64,000 nt of DNA from Natrinema sp. DC36 (lineage in GTDB: Archaea; Halobacteriota; Halobacteria; Halobacteriales; Natrialbaceae), in NCBI RefSeq assembly GCF_020405225.1, contig NZ_CP084472.1, positions 1,798,001-1,862,000 of the forward strand. Reading direction: 5' to 3'. The notes under the pieces are model-generated. The model was given only the letters and a program-made list of their open reading frames with translations. It had not been told where the DNA came from and made no database searches. A program made the translations under genes and the position numbers. Within the stretch, counting starts at the first letter, position 1; each line of letters starts with the position of its first letter. Shown one piece after another: positions 16,382-54,026 of the stretch.

Positions 16382-16613
16382 TCACTCATCCCGACAGCGG
16401 GGCGCGATCCGCGTGTGGTGTCCCAGTTCTCGCTGCCGGTGCCGAGTGTACGGGAACTGACCGTCGACCGTTCCTATCAGCAATCGTTGTTTTCCGCGAA
16501 CGAACGAGACACTGAATACGCTACTGCTGGGCCGTAGTATCCGATTTCTCGCGTAATGGTTCCGCCGGTTTATGCGCCGAAGCAACGACGAAACTGGTGC
16601 CTTCACGGCAACT

Positions 16614-18422
16614 ATGAACGCACGCAATCAGTTACTCGTCGTACTTACCGCGCTGATGCTCGTTTGCTCGAGCGGGGCGATGGTCACTGCCGCGACATCC
16701 GGCAACACCATCGATCAGAGCAGCGAGTCCAGCACGAACGAGTACGACTCAGCGAACGAGACGACGAACGAAACGATAGACGACGAACAGGACGAGGCAA
16801 CCACGGGGATCGACGGAAACGAGACGGTCCCCGGCGACGATGACGCCGACAACGAAACCGCGGACGCGGACAACGACTCCCAGCCCGCGTACGTGACGTT
16901 CGAAGATCAGACGACCGAGGGCGAGACGGTCGTCGTCGAGAACGTGACGCTCGCGAGCCCCGGTTTCGTGACGATCCACGATAGCAGCCTCCTCGTGGGA
17001 GACGTCTTCGAGAGCGTCATCGGTACCTCGGAGTACCTCGAGGCCGGCACGCACGAACAGGTCGAAGTCACCCTCGACGAACCGCTCGAGGAGGACGAGA
17101 CCCTGATTGCGATGCCCCATCGCGATACGAACGACAATCAGACGTACGATTTCGTCGAATCGGAGGGGCAGTTTGACGGTCCCTTCCTCACGGCCGACGA
17201 CGAGCCGGTGACCGACGATGCAGTGGTCACCGTCGAGGGAGCGGCCGATGAGGAACCGGTCGAGGAGAACGAGACCGACGAGGACGTTCAGCAGCCGGAC
17301 GACAACGTCACTGACGAAGAACCAACTGACAACGTCACTGACGAACCGATTGACGACAACGAAACCGACGAACCGATCGGCGACAACGTCACTGACGAGG
17401 ATGAGGTAGTCGACGAAGAGCCAGCCGATGAGATGCCGATGGAGGATCTACCGGTCGATGGTGACGGACAGCCGATCTTCGTCACCGTCGAGAATCTCAC
17501 CATCGAGAACCTGAACGTCGAGAATGTAACCGTTTACGTCCTCGTCGTCGGTGAAGACGTTGACGGTGACGAGATCGCAGACCAGATCAACAACGTCACC
17601 GACGGTGAGATGCCGGTTGTCGACGAGACCGAAGACAACGTCACTGACGACAACGAAACGGAAGAGAACATCACGCCGATCGACGAAGAACCGATCGACG
17701 ACAACGAGACCGAGGACGACGTCATCGACGACAACGAAACGGAAGACGACCTCACGCCGATCGACGATAACGAGACCGAGGACAACGAGACCGAGGACAA
17801 CCTCACGCCGATCGACGAAGAACCGATCGACGAAGAACCGATCGACGACAACGAGACCGAGGACGACGTCATCGACGACAACGAAACTGAGGATAACCTC
17901 ACGCCGATTGACGACAACGAAACTGAGGACAACGAATCGGAGGATAACCTCACGCCGATCGACGAAGAACCGATCGACGACAACGAAACGGAGGATGACG
18001 CCGACGATGTTGCGGCAGCCGAATCCTTCAACGTCAGCGACCTCGAGGCGCCCAGCAGCGCCGCGATCGGTGAGAACATCACCGTGACGGCGAACGTCTC
18101 GAACCCCACGGACGAGGAACGCACCGAGGCGATCCAGTTCCGTCTCGACGGTGACCTCGTCGCCGAGCAGAACGTGACCCTCGAGAGTGGCGCGAGCGAG
18201 GACGTCGAGTTCGAGGTCGACACCACCGGCCTCGCTGCCGGCGAGTACGTCCACATGGTGCTGTCGGACGAATCCGGAGAGGTCGCAGCCCTCGAGCTGA
18301 CCGAGGAGACTGACACCGGACTCGACAACGAGACGAACGAGACTGAAACCGGACTCAACGAGACCGAAGACGGTCTCAACGACACCGGTGAGAACACCAC
18401 CGACGGTGTGACGGCCGGCTAA
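16614..18422 (+). CDS. DUF7282-like surface protein with sequon-rich repeat region
   Basis: About 602 residues, secreted. Signal peptide at 1-28 (LLVVLTALMLVCSSGAM). Residues 75-205 resemble the haloarchaeal DUF7282 domain (PAYVTFEDQTTEGETVVVEN, then LIAMPHRDTNDNQTYDF). An acidic repeat region of about 280 residues follows, built from degenerate IDDNETED and EEPIDDNETEDN units, interrupted by a short second DUF7282-like strand region (QPIFVTVENLTIENLNVENV). A CARDB-like domain near 470-570 ends the protein. I count about 38 Asn-x-Ser/Thr sequons. The ATG at 16614 is chosen because an upstream in-frame ATG (16572) overlaps the TATA-like GGTTTATG. No anchor is seen at the C-terminus. Confidence 0.8.
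   Translation: MNARNQLLVVLTALMLVCSSGAMVTAATSGNTIDQSSESSTNEYDSANETTNETIDDEQDEATTGIDGNETVPGDDDADNETADADNDSQPAYVTFEDQTTEGETVVVENVTLASPGFVTIHDSSLLVGDVFESVIGTSEYLEAGTHEQVEVTLDEPLEEDETLIAMPHRDTNDNQTYDFVESEGQFDGPFLTADDEPVTDDAVVTVEGAADEEPVEENETDEDVQQPDDNVTDEEPTDNVTDEPIDDNETDEPIGDNVTDEDEVVDEEPADEMPMEDLPVDGDGQPIFVTVENLTIENLNVENVTVYVLVVGEDVDGDEIADQINNVTDGEMPVVDETEDNVTDDNETEENITPIDEEPIDDNETEDDVIDDNETEDDLTPIDDNETEDNETEDNLTPIDEEPIDEEPIDDNETEDDVIDDNETEDNLTPIDDNETEDNESEDNLTPIDEEPIDDNETEDDADDVAAAESFNVSDLEAPSSAAIGENITVTANVSNPTDEERTEAIQFRLDGDLVAEQNVTLESGASEDVEFEVDTTGLAAGEYVHMVLSDESGEVAALELTEETDTGLDNETNETETGLNETEDGLNDTGENTTDGVTAG
17636..18000 (+). repeat. Degenerate tandem repeat coding for DNETED-type units
   Basis: About 365 nt of imperfect in-frame repeats based on GACAACGAGACCGAGGAC and ATCGACGAAGAACCGATC, lying inside the surface-protein gene. 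Copies differ mostly at third positions, suggesting old duplication kept by selection on the peptide. Length variation between strains is likely. Confidence 0.75.
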
Positions 18423-20863: not shown

Positions 20864-21139
20864 ATGCACGATCTGACCGGCTTCCAGCGCGACCTGCTGT
20901 ACGTGATCGCAGGTGCCGACCGACCGTCGGGGCAGACCGTCAAAGACGAAGTCGAGAAGTACTACAGTTCGGAGATCAACCACGGACGGTTGTATCCGAA
21001 TCTGGATACGCTCGTCAACAAGGAACTGGTCGAGAAGGGACAACTCGACAGGCGAACGAACTACTACGCGATCACTGATGCCGGTCGACAGCAGATCGAA
21101 GATCGTCGGGAATGGGAGGGACAGTATATCGACTTCTAG
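20864..21139 (+). CDS. PadR family transcriptional regulator
   Basis: A 91-residue, single-domain PadR-like winged helix: LTGFQRDLLYVIAGADRPSG, VKDEVEKYYSSEINHGRLYP (the GRLYPNLDTLV motif is diagnostic), then RTNYYAITDAGRQQIEDR. Haloarchaea have many PadR-like regulators of this size without the C-terminal dimerisation helix of bacterial PadR. It stands alone, upstream of the DUF1616 gene. Confidence 0.88.
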   Translation: MHDLTGFQRDLLYVIAGADRPSGQTVKDEVEKYYSSEINHGRLYPNLDTLVNKELVEKGQLDRRTNYYAITDAGRQQIEDRREWEGQYIDF

Positions 21140-23616: not shown

Positions 23617-23620
23617 ATGA
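23498..23620 (+). other. Possible 40-codon leader ORF
   Basis: ATG at 23498 starts a 40-codon, strongly Arg-rich frame ending in ATGA with the acetyltransferase start at 23617. The basic composition is unlike haloarchaeal proteins, so it is either a regulatory leader or chance. Confidence 0.2.
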
Positions 23621-24207
23621 GCGAAGCGGTACGAGAAGTCGTCCGCGGCGACGGCTGTACGATCGACGCCGACGCGACGGTCGGCTACGGCGAGTTCGAC
23701 GAGCCGACGCGGATCGGCGAGAACGCGACGATCCGCGCCGGCTCGATCGTCTACGGCGACGTGACGATCGGCGACGAGTTCGCGACCGGACACGACGTCC
23801 TCGTCCGCGAAGGGACGACGATCGGTGACGACGTGCTCGTCGGAACCAAGACGGTCATCGACGGGCAGACGACGATTCGTTCGCACGTCAGCCTCCAGAC
23901 CAACGTCTACGTGCCGACCGAGACGACGATCGGAAACAACGTCTTCGTCGGCCCGGGTGCGGTGCTGACCAACGACGAGTACCCCGTCCGGACCGACGAC
24001 GGACTCGAGGGGCCGACGATCGAGGACGGCGCGTCGATCGGCGCGAACGCGACGCTGTTGCCCGGCGTCACGATCGGCGAGAACGCGTTCGTCGCCGCCG
24101 GGGCCGTCGTGACGGACGACGTTCCGGCTGACAGTCTGGCCGTCGGCACGCCAGCGACCGTCCAGGAGCTACCGGACCCGCTCGAGGGGGCGAACCAGCT
24201 CGCATGA
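23617..24207 (+). CDS. Left-handed beta-helix N-acetyltransferase (WbpD-like)
   Basis: A 196-residue hexapeptide-repeat acyltransferase. Repeats of the (I/V)GxxxxI type run throughout (TIGDEFATGHDVLVREGTTI, TIGNNVFVGPGAVLTND, SIGANATLLPGVTIGENAFV). NDEYPVR matches the active-site loop of WbpD/WlbB, which acetylate the 3-amino group of UDP-3-amino-GlcNAc-uronate with acetyl-CoA. First gene of a five-gene operon; it overlaps the aminotransferase by 4 nt. Confidence 0.88.
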   Translation: MSEAVREVVRGDGCTIDADATVGYGEFDEPTRIGENATIRAGSIVYGDVTIGDEFATGHDVLVREGTTIGDDVLVGTKTVIDGQTTIRSHVSLQTNVYVPTETTIGNNVFVGPGAVLTNDEYPVRTDDGLEGPTIEDGASIGANATLLPGVTIGENAFVAAGAVVTDDVPADSLAVGTPATVQELPDPLEGANQLA

Positions 24208-25421
24208 CGGACACCGAAACGAACCGAGAGGCGGAGACGGGTATCGATGCCGCCACTGGTGCCGATGCCGGAGCCGAGACAGCGAACGCCGATACCGAAC
24301 CCGACCGCGACGCGACGCCCGTTCCGATCGCCGACCCCCAACTCAGTGCTGACGCCGTCCAGCGGGTCGAATCCGTCCTCGAGGACGGCCGACTGGCGGA
24401 CGGGCCGGAAGTCAGGGCCTTCGAAGAGGAGTTCGCTGCCTACTGTGGCACCGACCACGCGGTCGCGACGGCTAACGGGACGACCGCGTTACACGCCGCC
24501 CTCGAGGCGATCGGACTCGAGGACGGCGACGCGGTGATCACGTCGCCGTTTTCCTTCGTCGCGAGCGCGAACGCGATCCGACTGGCGGGCGGCACACCCG
24601 TCTTCGCCGATATCGACCCCGAGACCTACACGCTGGATCCGGCCGACGTGAAACGGGTGCTCGCCGAGCGCGACGACATCGCCGGAATCCTGCCGGTCCA
24701 CCTCTACGGATTGCCCGCGGATATGCCGGCGCTGTGTGACATCGCCGACGAGCACGATCTGTTCGTCCTCGAGGACGCGTGCCAGGCCCACGGCGCGAAA
24801 ATCGACGGCGAGCGAGTCGGCACGTTCGGTGACGCGGCCTGCTTCTCGTTCTATCCGACGAAGAACATGACGACCGGCGAGGGCGGAATGATCGTCACCG
24901 ACCGCGACGACGTCGCCGAGCGCGCCGCGAGCTACGTCAACCACGGCCGAAACGTGAACGGGACCGGCGGCTACGACCACGTCGCTCTCGGGCACAACTT
25001 CCGGATGACCAGCATCGAGGCGGCGATCGGTCGCGTCCAGCTCGAGCGACTATCCGAATTCAACCGTGCCCGTCGCGAGAACGCCGCCGCGTACGACGAG
25101 CGGTTCGCCGACCTCCCGCTCGAGACGCCGACGGAGCCGACCGGCTCTCGGCACGTCTACCACCAGTATACGGTTCGGACGGAAGATCGGGACGCCCTCG
25201 AGGCGGCCCTCGCGGATCGCGACGTCGGGACCGGGATCTACTACGAGACGCCGATTCACCACCAGCCGGCCTACGAAACGGTCAGTACGGCCGCGGCGCG
25301 GCTCCCCCACGCGGAACGGGCGGCCGAGGAGGTGCTCTCACTGCCCGTTCACCAGGGCCTGTCGACACGCGACAGGGAGACTGTCGTCGAAGCAGTGCGG
25401 GATCACGTTACCAGCCAATGA
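24204..25421 (+). CDS. DegT/DnrJ/EryC1/StrS aminotransferase (WbpE-like)
   Basis: A 405-residue PLP-dependent sugar aminotransferase with an acidic N-terminal extension of about 40 residues. Motifs: ATANGTTALHAALEAIG (phosphate binding), VLEDACQAHGAK (PLP Asp), SFYPTKNMTTGEGGMI with the Schiff-base lysine K220, and GHNFRMTSIEAAIGR. In context it would aminate the 3-keto sugar made by the oxidoreductase encoded next. ATGA overlaps on both sides show tight coupling. Confidence 0.92.
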   Translation: MTDTETNREAETGIDAATGADAGAETANADTEPDRDATPVPIADPQLSADAVQRVESVLEDGRLADGPEVRAFEEEFAAYCGTDHAVATANGTTALHAALEAIGLEDGDAVITSPFSFVASANAIRLAGGTPVFADIDPETYTLDPADVKRVLAERDDIAGILPVHLYGLPADMPALCDIADEHDLFVLEDACQAHGAKIDGERVGTFGDAACFSFYPTKNMTTGEGGMIVTDRDDVAERAASYVNHGRNVNGTGGYDHVALGHNFRMTSIEAAIGRVQLERLSEFNRARRENAAAYDERFADLPLETPTEPTGSRHVYHQYTVRTEDRDALEAALADRDVGTGIYYETPIHHQPAYETVSTAAARLPHAERAAEEVLSLPVHQGLSTRDRETVVEAVRDHVTSQ

Positions 25422-26443
25422 GTACGGACAGAACGACTGACGCGACGACCGACGAACAGATTCGAGCCGGCGTCATCGGCGTCGGCTCGATGGGCGAAAA
25501 CCACGCGCGCATCTACGCCGAACTCCCCCGCGTCGAACTCGCCGGCGTCACTGACCACGACGACGAGATCGCACGACGAGTCGCCGACGAATACGGGGCC
25601 GAACCGGTCGACCTCGAGACGCTGTGCGAGCGCTGTGATATCGTGACGGTTGCTGTCCCGACCCACGCTCACTACGAGACGGTCTCGGCCTGTCTCGAGG
25701 CGGGCGTCAACGTATTGGTCGAGAAGCCGATCGCGGAAACCGTCGAGCAGGGCCAGAAACTGGCCGAACGGGCCCGCGAGGCGGGGCTCGTCTTGCAGGT
25801 CGGCCACATCGAGCGGTTCAACCCGGCGGTGCAGACGGTCGCGGAACTGATCGACGATCTGGACGTGATCAGCATCGAGGCCCACCGGCTCGGCCCGCCG
25901 ATCGACCGGACCGCACCGGGCAACGTGGTCTTCGACCTGATGGTCCACGACGTCGACGTCGTCGGGTCGATACTCGACGAAAAACCGCACTCGGTCGCCG
26001 CGATGGGGGCCGAGAACGGCAACTACGCTACCGCGACGATCGAGTACGACGACGTCATCGCGACGGTGACGGCGAGCCGCGTCACCCAGAAGAAGGTCCG
26101 GAAACTCACCGTCACCGCCCGCGAGTGTCTCGTCGAGGTCGACTACCTCGAGCAGTCGGTGCTGATCCACCGCGATTCCTACCCCGAGTACCTCACGGAC
26201 GACGGCCAGTCCCGCTACCGCCACGAGAGCGTCGTCGAGCGACCTCGCGTCGACACCGGCGAGCCGCTTCGAAACGAACTCGAGTCATTCGTCGAGGCGG
26301 TTCGCACCAGCACCGAGCCGGAAGTGACCGCCGAGGACGGGATTCAGGCCCTCGAGACGGTCCAGTTGATCGATCGGCTCGCGATGGGGCCGCCGGACGA
26401 GACGGACGACGAACCGCCGCAGGAGCCGGAGGTGGAAGCCTGA
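25418..26443 (+). CDS. Gfo/Idh/MocA oxidoreductase (WbpB-like)
   Basis: A 341-residue NAD(H)-dependent oxidoreductase. GVIGVGSMGENHARIY at about 18-33 is the dinucleotide fold, VLVEKPIAE carries the family lysine K103, and VFDLMVHDVDVV holds the conserved His/Asp of the C-terminal domain. WbpB-type enzymes oxidise C3 of UDP-GlcNAc-uronate before amination. The start sits inside an ATGA overlap with the aminotransferase; the stop shares one base with the next ATG (TGATG). Confidence 0.9.
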   Translation: MSTDRTTDATTDEQIRAGVIGVGSMGENHARIYAELPRVELAGVTDHDDEIARRVADEYGAEPVDLETLCERCDIVTVAVPTHAHYETVSACLEAGVNVLVEKPIAETVEQGQKLAERAREAGLVLQVGHIERFNPAVQTVAELIDDLDVISIEAHRLGPPIDRTAPGNVVFDLMVHDVDVVGSILDEKPHSVAAMGAENGNYATATIEYDDVIATVTASRVTQKKVRKLTVTARECLVEVDYLEQSVLIHRDSYPEYLTDDGQSRYRHESVVERPRVDTGEPLRNELESFVEAVRTSTEPEVTAEDGIQALETVQLIDRLAMGPPDETDDEPPQEPEVEA

Positions 26444-41843: not shown

Positions 41844-41888
41844 ATGCGTATCGAGACTGGTCCGGCCGAACTCGGTGAGAGGGCATGA
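41844..41888 (+). other. Possible 14-codon leader ORF
   Basis: ATG at 41844 opens a 14-codon frame (MRIETGPAELGERA), whose TGA overlaps the next start (ATGA at 41885). It sits at the distance from the ATAACAAACC element at which other genes of the class start. Confidence 0.35.
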
Positions 41889-43675
41889 GACGATCGACGC
41901 TCAACGTGACGGTCGCGATCGGCTTTCTCGCGGTCGCGATAGGGATCCTCGTGGCGAGGGCGAATCCCGCGACCGCCTACGAGCCGTCGGTCTACGCGGG
42001 CGCTCCGACGATCACCTGGTTCGGGTTCGCACTCGCGCTCGCGATCGCGGTCGGAGCAACCCTGTCCTGTCGCGGCGGTCAGCAGGGACTCGGAATCGGC
42101 CTCGGGGGACTGACGGTCACGGCCATCGTGAGCCTCCCGATACTCAGAAACTATCGGTTCGCCGGAATGGGCGACGCACTCACGCACCTCGGGTGGACGC
42201 GCGACATCGTCACCGGCGGAACCGCGCCGCACGAACTCTTCTATCCGGGACTCCACGCTATCGCGACGGTCCTGCACTTCGCCGGCGGTGTCTCGATCGA
42301 ACGCGGACTCCTACTCGGGATGGTCATCCTCTTCGTCCCCTTCGTCGTCTTCGTCCCGCTCGTCGTCCGCGATATGACCGGCGACGGGCTGGCGGTCGGC
42401 CTCGCCGCGATCGTCTCCTGGATGGTGCTGCCGATCAACAACATCGCGACGCACATGGGCGTCCACACTAACTCGAATGCGCTGTTCCTCGTTCCGCCCG
42501 TGCTCTTCGCGATCGTCGCGTACCTCCACCGGCGCTCGACTCTCGAGCGGCTCCCGCTCGACGTGTCGCCGTTCAGCGTCCTCGTCTTTCTCACCGGCCT
42601 CGCGCTCTTGCTGGTGCATCCCCAGCAGATGTTCAACGTCGTCGTTCTCATCGGCGCGATCAGCGGCGTCCAGTACCTCGCCAGCCGGCGCTACGACGAG
42701 CACCCGATGCTCGAGCACCCGACGACCCACGTCCACACGCTCTCCCTCGGGGCCCTCTTCGGGCTCTGGGCGCTCGGCAACGAGCGGTTCAGGCAGGCCG
42801 TCGGCGGCCTCGTCACCGGGTTACTCGCACAGGATATCGGCGGCGGCACCGAAGTCGACCAGCGGGGAACGTCGCTGACCGAGATCGGCGGCAGCCTCAC
42901 CGAGTTGTTCGTCAAGATGTTCCTCGATTCGGCGATCATCGGCCTCGTCGTCGGCTGTTTCATCCTGGTCGTCTGGCTCGGCCGGACGAGCCTCGACGGG
43001 GAGACCAGATCCCTCGTTAACTACTTCGCGTTCGCACTGTTCCCGCTCTCCGCGATGTTTCTCATCTACTTCCTCGGGACGCCGACGATGGCGTTCCGGC
43101 AGATGGGGTTCATCTACGTGCTCCTGACGATTCTGGCCGGTATCGCCCTCGCACAGCTCGTGGGTGGCCTCTCGAGCGTGATCACGAGACCGGGCGCGAA
43201 CGCGGTCACGGCGCTGGTACTCGGGGCGTGTCTCGTCCTCGGGCTCATGACGGTGTTCACGTCGCCGCTGATCTACAACCCGGGCCAGCACGTGACCGAC
43301 GAAATGATGAGCGGCTACGAGGACGGGTTCGATCACGGGGCCGAGGACGTTCCCTACGCAGGGATGGGGTACGACCCTTATCGATACGACCACGGCATCA
43401 ACGGAATTTCCGGCGGCGACACCATCAGCGGCGCGTCGGCCGCGACCGGCTCCGTCAACGCAACCGTGTTTTCGGAGGGGAACTACAGCGGGGCCTATCC
43501 CACCGACGAGTACTACTTCGTCGTCACCGACTGGGACGAGTCGAGGGAACTCGACGTCTACCGCGAACTCAACTACGACAGGAGTGCGCTCGAAGGACTC
43601 GACACCGAACCGGGCGCGAACAAGGTCATCTCGAACGACGATTTCGAGATGTACGCGATCGATAGTGCGCCATAG
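41885..43675 (+). CDS. Multi-pass membrane protein (GT-C-like)
   Basis: A 596-residue protein with about 11-13 helices up to residue 465 and a 130-residue extracytoplasmic C-terminal domain (from about 466, IYNPGQHVTDEMMSGYEDGF). A loop after helix 3 contains GMGDALTHLGWTRDIV, an acidic/His loop as in GT-C transferases that use polyprenyl-linked sugars. It resembles neither AglB nor a flippase clearly. Position in the cluster suggests a transfer step outside the membrane; this is inference. Confidence 0.78.
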   Translation: MRRSTLNVTVAIGFLAVAIGILVARANPATAYEPSVYAGAPTITWFGFALALAIAVGATLSCRGGQQGLGIGLGGLTVTAIVSLPILRNYRFAGMGDALTHLGWTRDIVTGGTAPHELFYPGLHAIATVLHFAGGVSIERGLLLGMVILFVPFVVFVPLVVRDMTGDGLAVGLAAIVSWMVLPINNIATHMGVHTNSNALFLVPPVLFAIVAYLHRRSTLERLPLDVSPFSVLVFLTGLALLLVHPQQMFNVVVLIGAISGVQYLASRRYDEHPMLEHPTTHVHTLSLGALFGLWALGNERFRQAVGGLVTGLLAQDIGGGTEVDQRGTSLTEIGGSLTELFVKMFLDSAIIGLVVGCFILVVWLGRTSLDGETRSLVNYFAFALFPLSAMFLIYFLGTPTMAFRQMGFIYVLLTILAGIALAQLVGGLSSVITRPGANAVTALVLGACLVLGLMTVFTSPLIYNPGQHVTDEMMSGYEDGFDHGAEDVPYAGMGYDPYRYDHGINGISGGDTISGASAATGSVNATVFSEGNYSGAYPTDEYYFVVTDWDESRELDVYRELNYDRSALEGLDTEPGANKVISNDDFEMYAIDSAP

Positions 43676-44329: not shown

Positions 44330-45280
44330 ATGGCGCAGAATCCCCGTACGTCCGAAACGGAATCCGCTCCGACGACAGGCCGAAATTCCGGATTAACCCG
44401 CCGCAACTACGTTCGTTCGCTCGCCGCGGTGGCGACCGCGACGACCGCACTCGGCGGTGCCGGTGCAGCCTCGGCCCAGGACGACTACGAGGTCATCGAA
44501 GCCGAGGGACAGACGATCACCATCGACGCCGGTGAGACCTGGGAGAACAAGCTCATCGACATGACGACCGGACAGGACATCATCGTCACGGCCCACAGCA
44601 GCGACTGGACGATCCGAAACATCGGGTTCAAAGGCAAGAACACCTCCGGCACCGGCTCCGCCACCTTCGGTATCTCCGACACCGCCGGCGGGACCTGTAC
44701 CGTCGAGAACGTCTACCTCGGCGACGGCTCGAGCACGGGTAACGGCAACCCGAACGGGCACGGCCAGACCGCCTTCTGGGTCGCTCCCGACCACTCCGGT
44801 CACATCGACTTCAAAAACGTCAACATCCAGAACTTCGCGGACAACGCGATCTACGCCTCCGCCCCCGGCAACAAGGGCGGCGGGACGATCCACATCGACA
44901 GCAGCTTCGCCGCGAACTGTTACGTTTCGCACTTCCGGCTGGCCACTGCGGGCAGCAAGGTAACGAACTCCAGCGTCTACGTCGACAGCAGTGAAGGCTA
45001 CGTCGGCCGCGGTATCTGGGCGTGGGCTCCCGGCACGATCGAGGTCGACAACTGCCAGATCGAGATGAACGGCCAGAATTCCGCCATCGTCGCCGGTGCA
45101 AACGGAAGTCCCACCGAAGTCTCCGTGACGAACTCCGACTACGACGACAAAGCGGGCATCTCCGAAGAAGCGGGCTCGAGCGTCCAACTCGGTGACAGCG
45201 TCGGGACCGAACCCGAGGCAGTCATCCCGGACGGCGTCCCGACCTCCCCCGAAGACGCCGCATCGGGCGCTTCAAACTGA
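44330..45280 (+). CDS. Tat-exported beta-helix protein, paralogue 1 (short form)
   Basis: A 316-residue secreted protein. Twin-arginine R24-R25 (LTRRNYVRSLAAVA), hydrophobic stretch and AASAQDDYE cleavage site. Residues 50-295 are parallel beta-helix coils like those of pectate-lyase-fold proteins: DWTIRNIGFKGKN, GHIDFKNVNIQNFADNAIYA, GTIEVDNCQIEMNGQNSAIV. It ends at IPDGVPTSPEDAASGASN, precisely where paralogues 2 and 3 go on into a linker and repeats. The start at 44330 (MAQNP) matches MARDP/MARDE of the paralogues; the ATG at 44312 is less likely. Ligand unknown, probably a surface polysaccharide. Confidence 0.85.
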   Translation: MAQNPRTSETESAPTTGRNSGLTRRNYVRSLAAVATATTALGGAGAASAQDDYEVIEAEGQTITIDAGETWENKLIDMTTGQDIIVTAHSSDWTIRNIGFKGKNTSGTGSATFGISDTAGGTCTVENVYLGDGSSTGNGNPNGHGQTAFWVAPDHSGHIDFKNVNIQNFADNAIYASAPGNKGGGTIHIDSSFAANCYVSHFRLATAGSKVTNSSVYVDSSEGYVGRGIWAWAPGTIEVDNCQIEMNGQNSAIVAGANGSPTEVSVTNSDYDDKAGISEEAGSSVQLGDSVGTEPEAVIPDGVPTSPEDAASGASN

Positions 45281-45285
45281 ATCCG

Positions 45286-45377
45286 CCGCTGACGCGACCC
45301 TCCCCCCACGAATTCCGTCCCCGCTGACGCATCCCTCCACACGATCCGTTCCCTACTGACGCACCTTCCCTCCACAG
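45286..45377 (+). repeat. Imperfect tandem repeat after paralogue 1
   Basis: CCGCTGACGC at 45286 and 45321 and CTACTGACGC at 45353 head three units about 32-35 nt long that share a pyrimidine-rich CCCTCC(C)CAC part. They lie within 100 nt of the stop codon and could fold or be a remnant of duplicated sequence. Confidence 0.5.
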
Positions 45378-45425
45378 TGCGGATCGGTGCTGTCCACTCC
45401 CGCGATCCGCGCTGGCACACTCTCG

Positions 45426-45433
45426 CCTTTTTT
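45426..45433 (+). terminator. T-run terminator
   Basis: GCCTTTTTTGAC at 45425-45436, about 145 nt after paralogue 1. Archaeal transcription ends at short T-runs; no stem is needed. Confidence 0.45.
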
Positions 45434-45786
45434 GACTTCTCGTTCGATACCCGTCACGGACTCGAGCCGTCGCTCCAATAACGGGTATGGGAGTCACCGA
45501 AACGATTTCACGCTGATCGCACAACCCGCGGTTCTCGATCACAGTGCGGGTTCTCGCTCGCGGTGTTCGCTCACGGCTCGCTTCGCTCACCGTTCGCGTC
45601 CCCGCGGTTCTCGCTCACTACGTTCGCTCCGAACCGCGCTACTCTCGTGCGTGCAGGTGTGCAGTGACTTTCAGCGACTGTTCTGGTCCGTTTCGTCCGG
45701 ATTCGAGGTACCTGTTGCTCGAAGGGCAAAGCTGCGGAGATGATCGCTTCTTCCGGGTGTATTCGGAGTATCGTCTTCGGAGTAAT

Positions 45787-45853
45787 ATCGTATTACCAGC
45801 GAAAGCCCCCCGGAATCAACCGGTTTTCGGCGCCCGTTCCCTGGTAATACGAT
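45787..45853. repeat. 13-bp inverted repeat
   Basis: ATCGTATTACCAG (45787-45799) and CTGGTAATACGAT (45841-45853) are perfect inverted copies, 41 nt apart, about 160-225 nt before paralogue 2. The core TATTAC/GTAATA also forms a small dyad 300 nt before paralogue 1. It may be an operator pair or the ends of a small mobile-element remnant; no target-site duplication was seen. Confidence 0.5.
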
Positions 45854-45945
45854 TATACCCATAGAAAAGCGGGAATTTCCCAGACATATAATTCCGACAT
45901 TAAAAGCCACTCAAACTTTTACCAATAGTACAGATAATAGGTAAA

Positions 45946-45983
45946 GTCTGTAAATTTTAAGTGCAGAAATGCGGAAAGTTTAT
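45946..45983 (+). promoter_or_regulatory. Promoter of beta-helix paralogue 2
   Basis: GTCTGTAAATTTTAAG (45946-45961) and the TATA-like GCGGAAAGTTTATG (45971-45984), ending 26 nt before the ATG at 46011, closely matching paralogue 1. Confidence 0.6.
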
Positions 45984-46010
45984 GCCGGTAGTATCTAATT
46001 ACCTGATTGC

Positions 46011-47828
46011 ATGGCACGCGACCCTTCGGTTTTGGACGACGAGTCGTCCGCTTCCACCGACGCGGAGGCGACCAACGACGGCAGTAAAAACGTATTACTA
46101 CACCGGCGATCGTACATGAAGCTGGCCGGTACGACGACGGCGGCCGCGACGCTAACTGGAGCAGCGAGCGCCGTCGAAGACGACTACGAGGTCGTCGAGG
46201 CGCGCGGACAGACGGTGACGGTCAACCGCGGCGAAACATACGAGAACAAACTGATCGACCTCACGACCGGAGAGAGTTTTCTGATAATGGTCAATGGAGC
46301 CGACTCGGCGGTTCGAAATATCGGTTTCAAAGGTCTCTACCGCGGCGACTCGTTCATGATCTCGATCAACGCCGGGCAGGGAGACATCCTCTTCGAGAAT
46401 ATTTACCTGGGCGACGGCGCGACGAAGGAAGGCGCGAGCTTCGTTCACGGCCCCGGTGCCGTGTTCATGCACCGAGACAGCGAAGCGGATCTCACCTTCC
46501 GCAACTGCAACGTCCAGGGATACCCGAACAACGGCTTTTACTGTTCCAACACGCCGTACGGCGGCAGCGTCCGATTCGAACGCTGTTTCGGCAAGAACAA
46601 CGGCGTCGCCACCTTCCGATGCGGGAGCGAGGACGACGAGATCGTCGACTGCGTCGCCTACAACGACGATACGGACTACGGGCGCGGCTACGGCGGCTAC
46701 GGCGAGACCAACGGTCGCCCCGTCTGGGTCTGGAACGGCGGCACCGTGACCGTCCGCAACTCGCACTTCGCCGACGGTCCCTACCCGTACTCGCTCGTGG
46801 CCGGCGCGAACGGTTCCGCGGGCAGCGTCGACTTCCGGAGCGGCGGCTATCGCGGACAGATTCGGGAGGCGAACGGTTCCACGGTCTCCATCGGCAGCGA
46901 CGTCTCGAGGGAGCCCGATCTCTCCATCCCCGACGGTGTCCCGACGACGCCCGAGGAAGCCGCATCGGGCACCGAATCCGCTGGCTCGAGCCGCGGAGCC
47001 AGCGACGAGGCGACGAGCGACGAGGAGAGCCCGCAACTGCCGAACGTCCTCCTCGTCGACGGCGATCCGTCGGATGCGACCAGATACGAGTTCACAGTCG
47101 ACGGTGCGATCGAACACGCCAACTACGAGGGAGCCACGATCGACGACGAGGACACCATCGACGGCGCTACCGTGCAGGGCAGCGTGGCCGACTGGAAGGA
47201 CGCCTTCCGGTTCGACGGCGACCTCGCGGAACTCACCGTCGACGGCCCCGGAACGGTGCTCGTCAACGACGAGGCGGTCGATCCGGCCGACTTCGGGCGA
47301 CAGCTTCCACACGTCCTCGAGGTCGCGGGACAGGGGACGCCGACGAGCTACGAGATCACGGTCGACGGATCGATCGAACTCGCGACGGACGCGCAGCCGG
47401 AAACGGACGCGACGACGGTCTCGGGGTCGACGGTTCAGAGTTCGCTCACCGACGAAACCCAGTCCTTCCGATTCTCGGGTGCGCTGACGGACCTCACCTT
47501 TAGCGACGGCGCGGCGGACGTGATGGTCGACGGCGAATCGATCGATCCGAGCGAATACGGGGAGCACGAACTGCTTCCACACGCCCTCGTGATCGACGGC
47601 GTCGACGCCGACGGGCCGAGCACGTACTCCCTCGAGATCGACGGCGCGGTCGTCAAGTCGGAGTACCGGAACGCTTCGATCGACGACGAAGACGTGATCG
47701 AGGGGCGAGCCGTTCGCGGCGCCGTCGGCAACTGGCTCGACGCCTACTGGTTCGACGGCGACGTCACCGACTTCCAACTCCGTGGTGACGCGAGCGTCGA
47801 CGTCCAGTACAACGCGCGCGATCACTAA
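46011..47828 (+). CDS. Tat-exported beta-helix protein, paralogue 2, with three C-terminal repeats
   Basis: A 605-residue secreted protein. Tat motif R32-R33 (LHRRSYMKLAG). Beta-helix domain at about 60-315 (AVRNIGFKGLYRGDSF, ADLTFRNCNVQGYPNNGFYC), ending at IPDGVPTTPEEAASG. An acidic Ser-rich linker leads to three modules of about 89 residues, starting at 343, 432 and 521. Each has a PxVLxVxG start, a VDGxIE strand, an FRFxGDLxxLT strand and an IDPxDYG end; the last ends VDVQYNAR. The modules look like beta-sandwich ligand-binding units, not recognised by me. It lies 3' of paralogue 1 on the same strand. Confidence 0.87.
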   Translation: MARDPSVLDDESSASTDAEATNDGSKNVLLHRRSYMKLAGTTTAAATLTGAASAVEDDYEVVEARGQTVTVNRGETYENKLIDLTTGESFLIMVNGADSAVRNIGFKGLYRGDSFMISINAGQGDILFENIYLGDGATKEGASFVHGPGAVFMHRDSEADLTFRNCNVQGYPNNGFYCSNTPYGGSVRFERCFGKNNGVATFRCGSEDDEIVDCVAYNDDTDYGRGYGGYGETNGRPVWVWNGGTVTVRNSHFADGPYPYSLVAGANGSAGSVDFRSGGYRGQIREANGSTVSIGSDVSREPDLSIPDGVPTTPEEAASGTESAGSSRGASDEATSDEESPQLPNVLLVDGDPSDATRYEFTVDGAIEHANYEGATIDDEDTIDGATVQGSVADWKDAFRFDGDLAELTVDGPGTVLVNDEAVDPADFGRQLPHVLEVAGQGTPTSYEITVDGSIELATDAQPETDATTVSGSTVQSSLTDETQSFRFSGALTDLTFSDGAADVMVDGESIDPSEYGEHELLPHALVIDGVDADGPSTYSLEIDGAVVKSEYRNASIDDEDVIEGRAVRGAVGNWLDAYWFDGDVTDFQLRGDASVDVQYNARDH

Positions 47829-47986
47829 TATAGAAGCTCGATTTTTCCGTTTCTCTCGCCGTTGCTCGAGTGGGAGGCTCGAGCACGCCGAGCGATCCGG
47901 CCGCGGCTCGGAGTTCCACGCCGCGAAACCCCACAGCAGACGCGCAGCGGTATAGATAGGCGGGTTGTACTGTCGGTACGAGCGTA

Positions 47987-47996
47987 ATAACAAACC
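47987..47996 (+). promoter_or_regulatory. ATAACAAACC element (before GT4 gene)
   Basis: ATAACAAACC, one change from the consensus, exactly 33 nt before the ATG at 48020. Confidence 0.6.
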
Positions 47997-48019
47997 AGTT
48001 GATACGCGTCTACTGGCGC

Positions 48020-49180
48020 ATGCACATCGGGTTCTATCACGACGCTGCGGGAACGCGACACGCCGGGGGGATCGCCGTCTACACGCAGCGGATGGCGGTC
48101 GAACTCAGCGAGACGAACGACGTGACGCTGTATACCAGACGCGGTGATTTCTCCCCCGTGTTGCTCGAGTCGGACGTGCGGATCGTCGAGACCCCGTCGT
48201 TCGACGACCATCCCTCCCGGGTGATCGATTCGATCAATCCCCTCGGTACCCAGAACCGCAAGAAGTTCCTGATGACGCTGTGGGCGGCCCGTAACGACGT
48301 CATCGATCAGATGAACGAACGGCTCGACGTGCTCTGTACATCCCAGTTTCTGGACGACCTGCTCCTCTCGAACCTCGTCGACGTGCCGACCGTCTACACG
48401 TTTCACAAGGCCTCGACCGTCACCCCGGCGGCCTGGCTTCGCGACCGGTTTTCCCAAACGGATCTGCTGCTGGCCAACTCGCCGGATACCGCCCGGCGGC
48501 TCACCGAGACGTTCGGCTACGACTTCGAGGGCGTCGTCCCGCCCGGCATCGATCCCGAGGAGTTTCGGCCCGGTGTCGAGCCCGCCTTCGAGAGCGACGA
48601 CCCAGCAATCTTGTTCGTCGGCCGACTCATCGAATCGAAGGGGATCGACGACCTGCTCGAGGCGGTCGCGGCCCTCGACGGACGGCAGGAACTCCACTTC
48701 GTCGGACGGGGCGAGCGCACCCGGATTCGGGATCGGGCCGCGGCGCTCGGGATCGACGACGACGTGATCTGCCACGGTGAGGTCACCCATCCCGACCTCC
48801 CGGCGTACCACGCCGGAGCCGACGTGTTCTGTCTCCCGAGCCACCAGGAGAGTTTCGGAATGGCGAACCTGGAAGCCATGGCCTGTGGCCTCCCGGTCGT
48901 CACCACCGATCTCGAGGGAATCACGACCTACCTGTCCAACGGGGAGAACGGCCTGCTGGCCCGCACCGGCGATCCCCAGGATCTCGCGGACAAGTTGACG
49001 ATGCTCGTGGAATCCCCGTCGCTCCGGTCGCGCCTCGGTGCGCAGGCTCGCAAAGACGCGGACGCGTTTCGCTGGACCGCCCAAGCCGAGCGCTTCGAGC
49101 GAATCTGTCGCACCGCGCTCGAGTCGACCGAGGGGATCGATCGCCCGTCGAGCGAGCCGATCCGGGCGGACACGGTCTGA
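48020..49180 (+). CDS. Family 4 glycosyltransferase
   Basis: A 386-residue GT4 enzyme of full length. HAGGIAVYTQRMAVELS (acceptor domain glycine loop), VVPPGIDPEEFRPG (hinge), ILFVGRLIESKGIDDLLEAV (start of donor domain), HQESFGMANLEAMACGLPVV with the E-x7-E motif. The ATG at 48020, 33 nt after a glycan-type promoter element, is chosen over the upstream in-frame extension to 47999. It probably adds one sugar during repeat-unit assembly on the cytoplasmic face. Confidence 0.92.
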   Translation: MHIGFYHDAAGTRHAGGIAVYTQRMAVELSETNDVTLYTRRGDFSPVLLESDVRIVETPSFDDHPSRVIDSINPLGTQNRKKFLMTLWAARNDVIDQMNERLDVLCTSQFLDDLLLSNLVDVPTVYTFHKASTVTPAAWLRDRFSQTDLLLANSPDTARRLTETFGYDFEGVVPPGIDPEEFRPGVEPAFESDDPAILFVGRLIESKGIDDLLEAVAALDGRQELHFVGRGERTRIRDRAAALGIDDDVICHGEVTHPDLPAYHAGADVFCLPSHQESFGMANLEAMACGLPVVTTDLEGITTYLSNGENGLLARTGDPQDLADKLTMLVESPSLRSRLGAQARKDADAFRWTAQAERFERICRTALESTEGIDRPSSEPIRADTV

Positions 49181-49290
49181 ACTCGGCGGACGGTCGCGAC
49201 CGCTGTCGCGAACGCGATCACGCACAGGACACAGGGTCCGAACGCGATCGCTCGAGGAACGGTTCCGTCAGAAAAACCGGTCGAGACCGG

Positions 49291-51327
49291 TCAGTCGCTT
49301 CGGGCGTTGTACTGGACGTCGACGCTCGCGTTGCCGCGGAGTCGGAAGTCCGCGATGTCGCCGTCGAACCAGTAGGCGTCCAGTTCGTCGTCGACGCTGC
49401 CGGTGACGGATCGGCCGTCGATCTCGTCGCCGGGGTCGACCGACGCGTCGCGGTAGCTCGCGGTGACGACCTCGCCGTCGATAGCGAAGGAGTAGCTCGT
49501 CTCGCCGTCGGTGCCGGCGCCGTCGATCACGATGGCGTTGGGGAGCAGTTCCTGCTCGCCGTACTGATCGGGGTCGATTCGCCGGTCGTCGAGGTAGACG
49601 TGTGCCGAGCCGTCGATGAAGGTAACGTCGGTGAGCGTCCCGGAGAATCGGAAGCGCTGAGCGCCGCGTTCGATCGATCCCTCGACCGTGGTCCCGGAGG
49701 ATACCGTCGCGTGGTCCTCCGAATCGTCGCCGGCGACCGTCTCGATCGTGCCGTCGACCGTGATCTCGTAGTTTGCGGACGACCCGTTGCCGACCAGCGT
49801 CAGCACGTGTGGCTGCTCCTGGCCGTAGTCGGCCGGGTCGATCTGCTCGCCGTTGACCAGGACGCGGGCATCGCCGTCGACGGTGAGCTCCTCGAGATCG
49901 CCGCCGAACCTGAAGCCGTCGCGCCAGCCGGCGACGCCGCCCGTGACGTGACCGCCGTCGATGGCGTCCTCGTCGTCGATCGTGGCTCCCTCGACGGTCG
50001 CCTTTTCGACGGCCCCCGAGACCGCAAATTCGTAACTCGTTCCGCTCGCGGTGCCGATCCCGTCGACCAGCAGCGTGTTCTCGAGGCTGGGTTCGTCGCC
50101 GTTGTACTGATCGGGGTCGATCACCTCGCCGTTGACCTCGACGCGGGCCGAGCCCTGTCGGAACGCGACCTCGTGGAGGTCGCCGACGAAGCGGAACCCG
50201 TCGACGTGGGCCGACGTCGTCACCCAGCCTGACGCGCTCGTGCCGTCGATCTCGTCGTGAACCTCGAGCGAGCCGGCGTTCGGATCGGCGACGAGTTCGT
50301 CGGTGGTCTCGATGTAGTACTCCGTCGCGTCACCGGTCCCGGTGACCGTCAGAGTGTTCTCGGGGAGATCCTCGTCCGCATCACTCACGTCGTTCGAGGG
50401 CGGACTCGACGAACCACCGCCGCTGCCGCCGCTCGCTGCTTCCTCGCCGCTTTCCGGACAGCCGTCGGGAACGAAGTGTTGCGGGTTCGAGCCGTCGCCG
50501 CGGCCGTCGTCGGTGTGGACGTTATCGAGCGTCAGGTTCGGACTCCCGTTCGTCACGACCGAGCCGCCCGTGCCGTTCGTGATGAAGTGGGAGTTGCGGA
50601 CGGTCGCGCCGCCGCCGTAGTTGCCTTCCCAGACCCAGATGTTGCGGTTCGCCGCGCGCGTCCCGCTCTTGTAGCTCACGCAGTCCTCGATGGACATGCC
50701 ACAGTCACCGATTCGGAAGGCGGTGTGATGGCAGTCGTTGCCGTAACAGCCCTCGAGTGCGATCGTCCCGCCGTCGCCGTTGTAGGCGGGCGCGGAGCCG
50801 TAGATACCGTTATTTCCGGGAACGTTGAAATTGACGTTCGTCACGTCCAGGTGTCCCGAGTGGTCGGGGTCGACCCAGATGCAGATCGAGCGCTCGCTAC
50901 TCGGCTGTTCGCCGGTCGACTCGCCGAAGTAGACGTTCTCAATCACCGACGTTCCGGAGCCGGAATCGCAGACTCCGAAAATGGTCTCGTTGTAGGGAAT
51001 AGTGCCCGTAAAGCCGATGTTCCGGATCGTCCAGTTCGATCCCTTGGCGGCGATCGTGATGTTGTTTCGATCGCCGAAGTCGATGAGTTTGTTCTCCCAG
51101 GTCTCGCCCGAGTCGATCCTGATCGACTGGCCGCGCGCCTCGATGACCTCGTAGTCACCGTCGGCCGCGCTCGCCGCAGTCGTCCCGACGCCCGCTGCGA
51201 CGGCCGTCGCGCTGGCTAACTTCAGGTACGATCGTCGGTCGAGTATACTGTGTTCGTTCTGTTCGTCGTCACTAACTGTCGGTTCGGCGGGACCGTCTGT
51301 GTCCCGTACCGGTTCGTCGCGTGCCAT
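49291..51327 (-). CDS. Tat-exported beta-helix protein, paralogue 3, with four C-terminal repeats
   Basis: A 678-residue secreted protein. Tat motif R31-R32 (LDRRSYLKLASA). Beta-helix at about 55-295 (NWTIRNIGFTGTIPYNETIF, GHLDVTNVNFNVPGNNGIYG), then VPDGCPESGEEAASGGSGGG and a Ser/Gly/Pro linker. Four modules start at 321, 415, 506 and 594. The last three match modules 1-3 of paralogue 2 in order; the first is extra. The end VDVQYNARSD equals that of paralogue 2. It is convergent with the GT4 gene. Confidence 0.87.
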   Translation of the reverse strand: MARDEPVRDTDGPAEPTVSDDEQNEHSILDRRSYLKLASATAVAAGVGTTAASAADGDYEVIEARGQSIRIDSGETWENKLIDFGDRNNITIAAKGSNWTIRNIGFTGTIPYNETIFGVCDSGSGTSVIENVYFGESTGEQPSSERSICIWVDPDHSGHLDVTNVNFNVPGNNGIYGSAPAYNGDGGTIALEGCYGNDCHHTAFRIGDCGMSIEDCVSYKSGTRAANRNIWVWEGNYGGGATVRNSHFITNGTGGSVVTNGSPNLTLDNVHTDDGRGDGSNPQHFVPDGCPESGEEAASGGSGGGSSSPPSNDVSDADEDLPENTLTVTGTGDATEYYIETTDELVADPNAGSLEVHDEIDGTSASGWVTTSAHVDGFRFVGDLHEVAFRQGSARVEVNGEVIDPDQYNGDEPSLENTLLVDGIGTASGTSYEFAVSGAVEKATVEGATIDDEDAIDGGHVTGGVAGWRDGFRFGGDLEELTVDGDARVLVNGEQIDPADYGQEQPHVLTLVGNGSSANYEITVDGTIETVAGDDSEDHATVSSGTTVEGSIERGAQRFRFSGTLTDVTFIDGSAHVYLDDRRIDPDQYGEQELLPNAIVIDGAGTDGETSYSFAIDGEVVTASYRDASVDPGDEIDGRSVTGSVDDELDAYWFDGDIADFRLRGNASVDVQYNARSD

Positions 51328-51615: not shown

Positions 51616-53442
51616 TCAGCCGAAGACGACATCCCGCCGCGACTCGAGGACGCTCTCCGTGGAGTGGATATCGTCGATAAACGAGGTGAGCGCGAAGAGG
51701 CGGTAGACCGACAGCCGATCGTGGTCCGCGTACGCGTCGAGGAACGCGTGGAGTTCGTCGGTCGAGAGCACGTCGTCGACGGCCTCGCACTGTTCGATCT
51801 GCGTTCGAATGCAGTCGACCGTGCTCGGTCTCAGTTGGGACTCCGTGTCGAGACCGTTGAGCGATTTGACGATCGGGCGCACGACGTCGAACGCCCGTGG
51901 ATACCGCGACAGCAGGTCGTCGACGAACGCCGCGGCTTCGTGGCGAGTCGAGGCGACGGGGACGCCGTAATCGGGGTGAGTCAACGCCGCGGCGGCGGGC
52001 GCGAGTTCCGTGAGGAACGAGCGATAGAGGTTGTAGCGGGCCTTCTGCTCGGGCGGGCAGTTCATCGCGTACCGGAAGAAATCGATCGAGTAGAACGGGG
52101 TCGTGCTCCAGAAGAAGAACCGATTCCGGTCCTCTCCCTCGAACAGGAAGTTGACGCCGCGCTCGTAGACGAGGAAGTGGACGTACTTCGCGTCGGGATC
52201 GGTCTCGGGGTACAGTCGAAGCCGATCACGAACGCTCCGGCGAATCGCGTCCACGGAGAGCCCCGTGATCTGAGCCACCTGCTCGAGCGAGAGAAAGCAG
52301 TTCTCCGCGATGACGTGGTCGACCAGCGCCGATTCGTCGTCGATCGGCGTCGCGGGAGTGAGATCGGGAAGTACCTTGTCCCCGCCGTCGCCGGTAACGT
52401 AGGTCAGGCCGGCGTCGTACTCCGCCCGAAGCTGTCGGAAGAAGTCGAGGATGAACGAAGTCAGGAGACCGATCTGTCCGTTTTTCGTCTTGATAATCCG
52501 GTCCAGATCCGACCCGTCGGGCGGCCCGACATCGTAGCGCTGCCAGTCGATATCGAACTCGTCGGCCAGCTCTCGAGCGAGTTCGACGTCGGACGGCGGC
52601 ACGAACTCGTCGGAGGCCATCGTCGCCGCAGTCGTCGGGATCCCTTCGGCGTGGTACCCGGCCAGCACGGACCGCGAGTCGAGCCCCCCGCTCAGCGAGA
52701 TCACGTCGCGAGTGCCGTCGCCCGACCGCTGGCGGCAGGCCCGTTCGAACCGATCGACTAGTTCGGCGGCGTTTCGCGAGCGGCTCCGATCCGCGTAGGC
52801 CGGCTCGCCGAAGTCGAACCGGTGGAGCGTCGTCTCCGTGATCGCGCCGCGCTCCGGATCGACGGTGAGTTTCGTCCCGGGACGCAGCCGGTTCGCCCCG
52901 TCGATCAGCGTCCGGTCGCCCAGCGAGTAGCCGAAGAGGAGACAGTGAGCGGCGCCCATCGGATCGAACCCCTCGATCGGCGCCTCGTTGATGAGATAGC
53001 GCAGTTCCCGCGAGAACAGAAACGTCTCCCCGTCGTGGAAGTAGTACGTCGGCAGCCGAGCGAGCGGATCGTTGAGCAAGCCGAGCCGGTCGCTTCCCTT
53101 GTCGGCGGCGACGAGCAGGAACTCGCCGTCGGTCTCGAGCACCCATTCGGTCAGGAACTCGTCGTCGCCGTCGGCCGCGAGGACGTGCGCCGCGACCTCG
53201 AGGAGTTCGCGTTCGAGCGTCTCGTCGTCGCGGTCGTAGATCCGGCCCTCGAGACAGACCCAGTACTCGTCGTTCTCGACGATTCGGATCGGATACTCGG
53301 GATACGCCGTCGTCCCGACCGAACGAGACGCCGATTCGAAGACCACGTCGGCCTCGTACCGATCCGTGTGAACGAGCGGCTCGAGCGATCTGGCGAACGT
53401 TCCGTCGTCCGCATCCGGCGTTCGCCCAGTGATGCCAACCAT
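51616..53442 (-). CDS. Asparagine synthase-like protein lacking the glutaminase Cys
   Basis: A 608-residue protein with the two-domain layout of class B asparagine synthetases. The N-terminal domain starts MVGITGR, where active glutaminases have Cys at position 2, so ammonia release from Gln is unlikely. The PP-loop VISLSGGLDSRSVLAG (SGGLDS at about 251-256) and YVTGDGGDKV are intact, so ATP-dependent adenylation should work. Relatives include beta-lactam synthetase and amide-forming enzymes in glycan clusters. Starts at 53469 and further upstream are in frame; MVGITG fits the family best. Confidence 0.82.
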   Translation of the reverse strand: MVGITGRTPDADDGTFARSLEPLVHTDRYEADVVFESASRSVGTTAYPEYPIRIVENDEYWVCLEGRIYDRDDETLERELLEVAAHVLAADGDDEFLTEWVLETDGEFLLVAADKGSDRLGLLNDPLARLPTYYFHDGETFLFSRELRYLINEAPIEGFDPMGAAHCLLFGYSLGDRTLIDGANRLRPGTKLTVDPERGAITETTLHRFDFGEPAYADRSRSRNAAELVDRFERACRQRSGDGTRDVISLSGGLDSRSVLAGYHAEGIPTTAATMASDEFVPPSDVELARELADEFDIDWQRYDVGPPDGSDLDRIIKTKNGQIGLLTSFILDFFRQLRAEYDAGLTYVTGDGGDKVLPDLTPATPIDDESALVDHVIAENCFLSLEQVAQITGLSVDAIRRSVRDRLRLYPETDPDAKYVHFLVYERGVNFLFEGEDRNRFFFWSTTPFYSIDFFRYAMNCPPEQKARYNLYRSFLTELAPAAAALTHPDYGVPVASTRHEAAAFVDDLLSRYPRAFDVVRPIVKSLNGLDTESQLRPSTVDCIRTQIEQCEAVDDVLSTDELHAFLDAYADHDRLSVYRLFALTSFIDDIHSTESVLESRRDVVFG

Positions 53443-54026
53443 GTGAGGAAACGTGAGAGTCAGCGGCATAGTAATGGCCGCGTTTATGACCGCCAGATCG
53501 TGGCTACCGAAAGCGGTAATCGGCTGCGGTCGACCCGAAGCGCGAGTTCTGTTCGATCGCCTGCCGTCCCGGGCGATCGCCTGCGGGGCAACCGACTCGA
53601 GACGGTATCGTAGCCACTGAAACACGAAATTTGCGCACCGGCCAAGCCGTTCGCGTTAGAAGGCTCCCGCGCCGAGAACAGCTGCTGGCACGCGACTGTT
53701 CCGGTACTGGATGACGGTCGTCGGGAGCCAGTTGAATGTACGGAAGCGGGTAATAAAAAGCCTTCTTAGCGGCCGACGGGAGACCGCCATGAGAGAGCGG
53801 ATTGATCCCGTCGTCCATCCGCGTGCGGCGAGCGCGATCACGGGGAGAGATGGTGACGAGTACGGCGACGAACACGGACCCCGACCGGACGAACGGATCG
53901 GCGTCCGATCGGCAGAGGATCGGCGTCCAATCGGCAGGAGATCAACGAACGCGTCGCTCGAGGAGCGAGGTCCCAACGCGAACTCGTTGCAGCCACGGAC
54001 GGGACCGCCGCCGCGTGGACGTGGGG
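53443..54026. other. Intergenic region, no gene recognised
   Basis: Contains a TATA-like GGTAATAAAAAG at 53746-53757 on the plus strand with no convincing gene behind it, and a 22-bp imperfect direct repeat at 53895-53938 (GGATCGGCGTCC...). Open frames on both strands are Arg-rich and probably non-coding. Confidence 0.45.
53895..53938. repeat. 22-bp tandem duplication
   Basis: Two adjacent 22-bp copies beginning GGATCGGCGTCC at 53895 and 53917 with two differences, in non-coding sequence. Confidence 0.55.

Follow-up and report, generated by a model that had tools for sequence, protein, structure and literature searches.

A predicted beta-sandwich module, unnamed in the libraries searched, in tandem arrays on Tat-exported beta-helix proteins encoded among haloarchaeal glycan genes

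RESULTS

Proteins A, B, and C

The window, by which we mean the whole stretch of 64,000 nucleotides of Natrinema sp. DC36 DNA analyzed here, contains three genes for related exported proteins, designated A, B, and C (Table 1). A preliminary description of this DNA had assigned a common Tat signal and beta-helix to all three, with A stopping at DAASG without a module, B continuing with three modules, and C with four. The open reading frames, which lie at the positions given there, bear this out, the signals being visible in the sequence and the beta-helix being backed by a structure model of C. The twin-arginine motifs (LTRRNYVRSL, LHRRSYMKLA, and LDRRSYLKLA in the three proteins) are followed by a short hydrophobic region and are kept across the family. 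The C terminus of A reads ...PEDAASGASN, with no module after the beta-helix, and in B and C a low-confidence linker lies between the beta-helix and the modules. Since neither a lipobox cysteine after the signal (sequence and hydropathy check) nor a hydrophobic C-terminal membrane segment was found in A, B, or C, the proteins would be released outside the cell. The gene at 10982-12190 on the reverse strand encodes another exported protein of the Tat type, the fourth in the window, in which Pfam marks three stretches of NosD-type beta-helix repeats; a search of the genome with A did not recover it.

Table 1. Features of the locus, in positions of the window
Feature	Positions	Strand	Remarks
Polytopic membrane protein	41885..43675	+	596 aa; distantly DUF6541-like; opens the conserved block that includes A and B
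Protein A	44330..45280	+	316 aa; Tat signal and beta-helix, without module
Protein B	46011..47828	+	605 aa; Tat signal, beta-helix, 3 modules
Beta-helix domain of B (approximate)	46143..46970	+	Based on alignment with C
Module B1	47037..47303	+	aa 343-431; profile E 1.7e-38
Module B2	47304..47573	+	aa 432-521; profile E 1.8e-34
Module B3	47574..47825	+	aa 522-605; terminal type, ...VDVQYNARDH; profile E 5.1e-32
GT4 glycosyltransferase	47999..49180	+	Glycos_transf_1, E 8e-43
Protein C	49291..51327	-	678 aa; Tat signal, beta-helix, 4 modules
Module C4	49294..49545	-	aa 595-678; terminal type, ...VDVQYNARSD; profile E 1.5e-31
Module C3	49546..49815	-	aa 505-594; profile E 1.4e-33
Module C2	49816..50085	-	aa 415-504; modeled alone, pLDDT 92.8
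Module C1	50086..50367	-	aa 321-414; extra, variable fourth position; profile E 2.1e-29
Beta-helix domain of C	50422..51159	-	aa 57-302; structure model; Z 16-18 to polysaccharide lyases, tailspikes, AlgE epimerases
Asparagine synthase-like amidotransferase	51616..53625	-	Upstream of C; Asn_synthase E 1.2e-7; GATase_7

Gene neighborhood

Between about 23.6 and 53.6 kb, the window holds genes for a hexapeptide acetyltransferase, a DegT aminotransferase, GT2, DUF354, and GT4 proteins, an epimerase, and polysaccharide deacetylase-like, phosphodiesterase-like, and Asn-synthase-like proteins. The linkage of the module to such genes was assessed with 16 glycan-gene queries in 12-kb regions (within about 6 kb) around 40 module loci and in 40 control regions of the same genomes, mostly of the same contig. 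Matches were found at 19/20 loci of the window's own family (Natrialbaceae) and 18/20 loci of other families (37/40), compared with 0/20 and 2/20 controls (2/40), respectively (Fisher P = 3e-10 and P = 5e-7). Because some queries had been taken from module neighborhoods, the count was repeated with window-derived queries only and gave 19 and 16 of 20 versus 0 and 2 controls. The own-family signal came mostly from homologues of the 41885 protein (16/20), so that the other-family group is the more independent test. Both the gene content of the window and these counts agree with the location among glycan genes given in the preliminary description.

The order 41885 homologue, module-less beta-helix protein, module-bearing beta-helix protein (B or a 4-module equivalent) was present in 16 of the 20 own-family loci, and plasmid pHTUR04 of Haloterrigena turkmenica has the window order membrane protein, A, B, GT4. 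Outside the family, a module-less beta-helix protein was encoded near a module-bearing one in 9/20 loci. One orthologue of the 41885 protein exceeds the DUF6541 cutoff, and the product is possibly a membrane glycosyltransferase. Homologues of the Asn-synthase-like protein adjoin module loci elsewhere too. At 23617-26443 of the window, the acetyltransferase and aminotransferase genes are adjacent to one for an oxidoreductase whose best match, below the cutoff, is archaeal UDP-GlcNAc 3-dehydrogenase; judged by sequence, these genes are likely to form a pathway that supplies the glycan with a 2,3-diamino sugar. For the same acetyltransferase, aminotransferase, and dehydrogenase genes, a uronic-acid glycan was weighed but not adopted, the dehydrogenase best fitting the UDP-GlcNAc enzyme at that sub-cutoff level. 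Also encoded in the window, at 16572-18422, is a very acidic protein (616 aa, 33% D+E) that has a hydrophobic region at its N terminus and matched nothing in NCBIfam.

Register and reality of the module repeat

A module size of 85 to 95 residues had been proposed, which is roughly right, the measured range being 84 to 94 aa. The accompanying pattern VDGxIE...FRFxGDL...IDPxDYG is present in part but not in every module: B3 and C4 show YWFDGD and contain no IDPxDYG, and VDGxIE is absent from C1. Modules 1 to 3 of B do run in register with modules 2 to 4 of C, up to and including the VDVQYNAR end, as first described. Identities were 63% for B1/C2, 52% for B2/C3, and 62% for B3/C4, compared with 26 to 45% for all other module pairs of B and C, and VDVQYNAR plus two residues forms the C-terminal end of both proteins. 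A profile made from the B modules alone retrieved all four modules of C (sequence E = 4e-85), and one made from the C modules retrieved all three of B (sequence E = 3e-75), whereas the best of 500 shuffles in the control search reached only 5e-4; the repeat is therefore not due to chance. The module profile did not match protein A. The tandem modules are real and constitute a strong observation.

Beta-helix domain and conserved residues

In Pfam, A, B, and C matched beta-helix entries only below the cutoff. The model of full-length C (pLDDT 81.7, pTM 0.44) consists of confident domains in loose relative placement, with pLDDT mostly >90 in the beta-helix. This domain aligned with alginate, pectate, and rhamnogalacturonan lyases, VexL, tailspikes, and AlgE epimerases over about 180 to 240 residues (Z scores in Table 1), with 10 to 16% identity in the structural alignment. 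The top Foldseek rows for C included the K2-2 tailspike depolymerase and WceF (6tgf), and PfbA, an adhesin, was also among the beta-helix matches. The model thus places C among pectin-lyase-like right-handed parallel beta-helices, and N79, N103, and N131 are conserved on successive rungs, in the manner of an asparagine ladder. Membership in PL1, PL3, or PL6, or in any other one of the matched enzyme families, finds no support in sequence; Pfam gave no PL family match for A, B, or C and structural identity was confined to the range above.

Conservation was assessed in 60 beta-helix relatives, 41 from the own family and 19 from elsewhere, module-less A included. Y176, G187, R205, and R228 (C numbering) were invariant in 60/60, and most other family-wide residues drift. 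By the model strands E172-177, E202-207, and E228-233, Y176, R205, and R228 occupy consecutive rungs of one sheet, and from sequence and model they are the likely active-site residues of C; tyrosine and arginine on a beta-helix face would suit an enzyme, either lyase or epimerase, whose substrate is an acidic sugar. As A keeps all three residues, it is not a decayed copy.

Fold and classification of the module

The preliminary description could not assign the module to a known domain, and the library searches uphold this. The best E values were 0.011 in Pfam (54 modules, one member only), 0.016 in NCBIfam, and 0.03 in PHROGs (30 modules), none of them significant, and PDB sequences gave no significant match; no confident match to a characterized domain family was found in the libraries tested. 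Sub-threshold matches to ThiS, S4, and DUF4957 were taken as chance. Structure prediction of one module, followed by a structural search as the preliminary description had advised, returned a confident beta-sandwich with only weak CBM2/chitin-binding-like neighbors. Module C2 alone was modeled with confidence by AlphaFold as nine short strands (pTM 0.83), which we read as a beta-sandwich. Foldseek against PDB gave nothing below 1e-3, with CBM2 domains in the top rows (best E = 0.057 [6qfs]); against BFVD, the best E was 0.38. Z was at most 4.5 in VIA-align. Absence of a match in these structural searches is no proof of a new fold. Because the chitin-binding domains (ChBDs) matched weakly there (Z, 4.1 to 4.3) and were tied with TRAP and DUF4425, the module was not filed as CBM2. 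The module family has no invariant Trp, and no conserved aromatic strip was seen; its near-invariant residues are G, Y, G (54 modules) or G, Y, D (30 modules). No description of the module was found in open-access papers; in a comparison of cellulases from haloarchaea, long GH5 proteins are said to contain "yet undetectable domains," which could be this module or something else (PMC10267330). The module is a widespread domain family to which none of the searched libraries gives a name.

Age and order of the array

Trees were made from 20 loci of the Natrialbaceae and the window itself, the closest named relatives being Haloterrigena, Natronorubrum, and Halostagnicola. The last three module positions formed three clades with 23/23 copies each (support 1.0, 0.99, and 0.83), and the fourth position counted from the C terminus formed no single clade; the three-module core is therefore ancestral and the fourth position variable. 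These position-specific clades across 20 loci support the proposal that the array is older than the duplication of B and C, and the variation of the fourth position alone accords with the gain or loss of one module; an inference about array age drawn from two proteins is now widened to a whole family. Recent local amplification of the array was rejected, modules within a protein being only 26 to 45% identical and each position being an old clade. Module-less beta-helix proteins also formed one clade (18/18, support 0.984), so that A is a member of an old module-less branch.

Distribution of the module and its carriers

Searched with the seven-module profile, as had been suggested, 134 of 194 Halobacteria genomes (about 70% of those sampled) and 55 of 65 genera gave matches, and matches in the sets searched were confined to haloarchaea. 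A broader profile matched 36 genomes, all haloarchaeal, and 0/242 genomes of other groups of the phylum. Among the matches listed for 72,556 plasmid records, all were from haloarchaea and none was on a bacterial plasmid, and a narrow-pattern scan of genome contigs matched six loci, all haloarchaeal. Phage records and two scans of viral contigs gave no module match, and a phage origin was rejected on these grounds. In every search run, covering phylum genomes, plasmids, phage and viral sets, and the narrow-pattern contig scan, the module was haloarchaea only. Other families have it in long arrays, the proteins reaching 3050 aa. Within the class, arrays of five or more modules occur, and a genome can contain as many as about thirty copies. 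One 3050-aa open frame (L054/L122, G073:C4) contains several modules; its genome gave 34 module matches. Far from being peculiar to the window's locus, the module is an unnamed domain common in the class.

Outside proteins like B and C, the module was found on GH16, rhamnogalacturonase/epimerase-like (Pect-lyase_RHGA_epim), and glucose/sorbosone dehydrogenase (GSDH) proteins and, as one copy, on a DsbA-like thioredoxin protein; it is therefore an autonomous, shuffled domain. One genome encodes four stand-alone single-module proteins of about 104 to 134 aa without a visible signal peptide (L015, L016, L018, and L019; G000 contigs C2 and C3). Each adjoins a near-identical PadR-like regulator (MDDLTGFQRDLLYVIAG...), assigned to that family by reading its sequence, with no profile match. 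These signal-less modules argue that the module is not only extracellular and, together with the DsbA-like carrier, that it is not only a glycan accessory. Another single-module protein (L014, G000:C1:2257801-2261001), 142 aa long and with no obvious signal peptide, resembles the module type that stands second from the end in B and C. The window has a similar PadR-like regulator at 20864-21139.

DISCUSSION

The module usually lies beside genes that build the sugar coat of the cell, so that the probable role of A, B, and C is enzymatic, in trimming or binding that coat. The reading that we put forward, at what we judge to be even chances, is that they are exported, self-directed polysaccharide-modifying enzymes with a C-terminal binding or spacing array and with A as a module-less partner; we infer the catalysis, the substrate, and the ligand of the modules. 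The three proteins would be exported by Tat and then released from the cell. There, the beta-helix would cut or modify, as a lyase, hydrolase, or C5-epimerase, an acidic polysaccharide, which would be the cell's own surface glycan or exopolysaccharide and the product of the surrounding gene island. Y176, R205, and R228 of C would serve in the active site. In B and C, the string of autonomous beta-sandwiches would anchor the enzyme to the polymer or keep it at the surface, by CBM-like binding or as a spacer, and A would be a module-less, more diffusible version. The modules may bind the cell's own exopolysaccharide, although action of the beta-helix on a glycan is the more likely of the two activities.

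The lyase/epimerase-like fold, the invariant Y/R/R, the linkage to glycan genes, the block kept at 16/20 loci, the presence of modules on GH16, RHGA_epim, and GSDH proteins, as is usual for accessory domains, and the CBM2 and chitin-binding domains among the weak structural neighbors of the module count for this reading; the use of the beta-helix by nonenzymatic adhesins, the weakness of the CBM2 matches and their tie with TRAP and DUF4425, a conserved aromatic strip not having been seen, the signal-less modules, and the DsbA-like carrier count against it. One alternative is that of structural or adhesive surface proteins, in which the beta-helix would be a noncatalytic scaffold or adhesin head and the modules Ig-like beads holding it out from the S-layer or linking biofilm cells. 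The bead-on-string layout with its low interdomain confidence (pTM 0.44), weak module matches to cohesin, collagen-binding, and CLIPPER adhesin domains, PfbA among the beta-helix matches, and very long arrays such as that of the 3050-aa protein fit such a role; we nevertheless hold it to be unlikely, given that Y/R/R is fully conserved in module-less A and among families whose other residues have diverged, that the glycan-gene linkage is strong, and that modules are joined to genuine enzyme domains.

An enzymatic beta-helix could also be directed at foreign polysaccharides such as plant or algal pectin and alginate, as in polysaccharide-degrading haloarchaea. Pectate and alginate lyases have the same fold, and growth of haloarchaea on polysaccharides has been described (PMC9726719). 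Yet the block occurs in most sampled family loci and travels with glycosyltransferases, flippases, and Asn-synthase-like genes, and no sugar uptake or catabolic genes are annotated beside it, which makes scavenging very unlikely. For the modules, the alternative to glycan binding is protein-protein interaction, within an extracellular glycan-processing complex or in docking to the S-layer, in which case the beta-helix may still be an enzyme. Weak cohesin-like matches, the signal-less single modules beside PadR-like regulators, and the distinct conserved type at each array position, as if each had its own partner, speak for it; no conserved partner protein was identified, however, and the module is associated with glycan genes of very different kinds, so that this too appears improbable. 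The modules could form an undescribed haloarchaea-specific carbohydrate-binding family in which every array position reads a feature of its own in the surface glycan of the cell, a tentative extension that we regard as somewhat doubtful; if it is true, A, B, and C are dedicated, array-targeted editors of their own glycan throughout a whole archaeal family.

The assembly and turnover of haloarchaeal surface glycans are poorly known. The profile made here recovers the unnamed module at once and flags exported proteins predicted to act on these glycans, and the block of membrane protein, A, and B offers a small testable gene set, with A as a built-in module-less control, for the remodeling by archaea of their own polysaccharide coat.

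Comparison with known systems

The CBM2 and chitin-binding domains of C. fimi, P. furiosus, and T. kodakarensis, which gave the top weak structural matches, are small beta-sandwich accessories of carbohydrate-active enzymes, as the module is predicted to be; the module differs in having no sequence match to them (Z at most 4.3, TM about 0.3) and no conserved aromatic strip that we could see. The AlgE mannuronan C5-epimerases consist of a beta-helix catalytic A-module followed by repeated accessory R-modules, which are calcium-binding beta-rolls. They share with C the layout of a beta-helix, catalytic in AlgE, and repeated accessory modules, and the A-module aligned with C at Z 16; unlike the beta-rolls of AlgE, the modules of B and C are predicted beta-sandwiches, and identity was 12 to 14%. 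In Pantoea stewartii, WceF is a beta-helix hydrolase encoded in the organism's own EPS cluster (PMC7949094). Like C, WceF is a beta-helix protein in an exopolysaccharide synthesis cluster, and it stood in the top Foldseek rows for C; WceF is, however, a tailspike-like trimer that hydrolyzes stewartan, whereas in A, B, and C the helix is shorter, the proteins are haloarchaeal and Tat exported, tandem modules are present in B and C, and the function is a predicted one. The periplasmic depolymerase VexL (6fi2), a monomeric beta-helix enzyme from a capsule pathway, resembles C in fold (Z = 17.3) and differs in its export, in the absence of such a module array, and in sequence (10% identity over the aligned part). 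WceF and VexL are precedents for an exported, self-directed polysaccharide-modifying enzyme.
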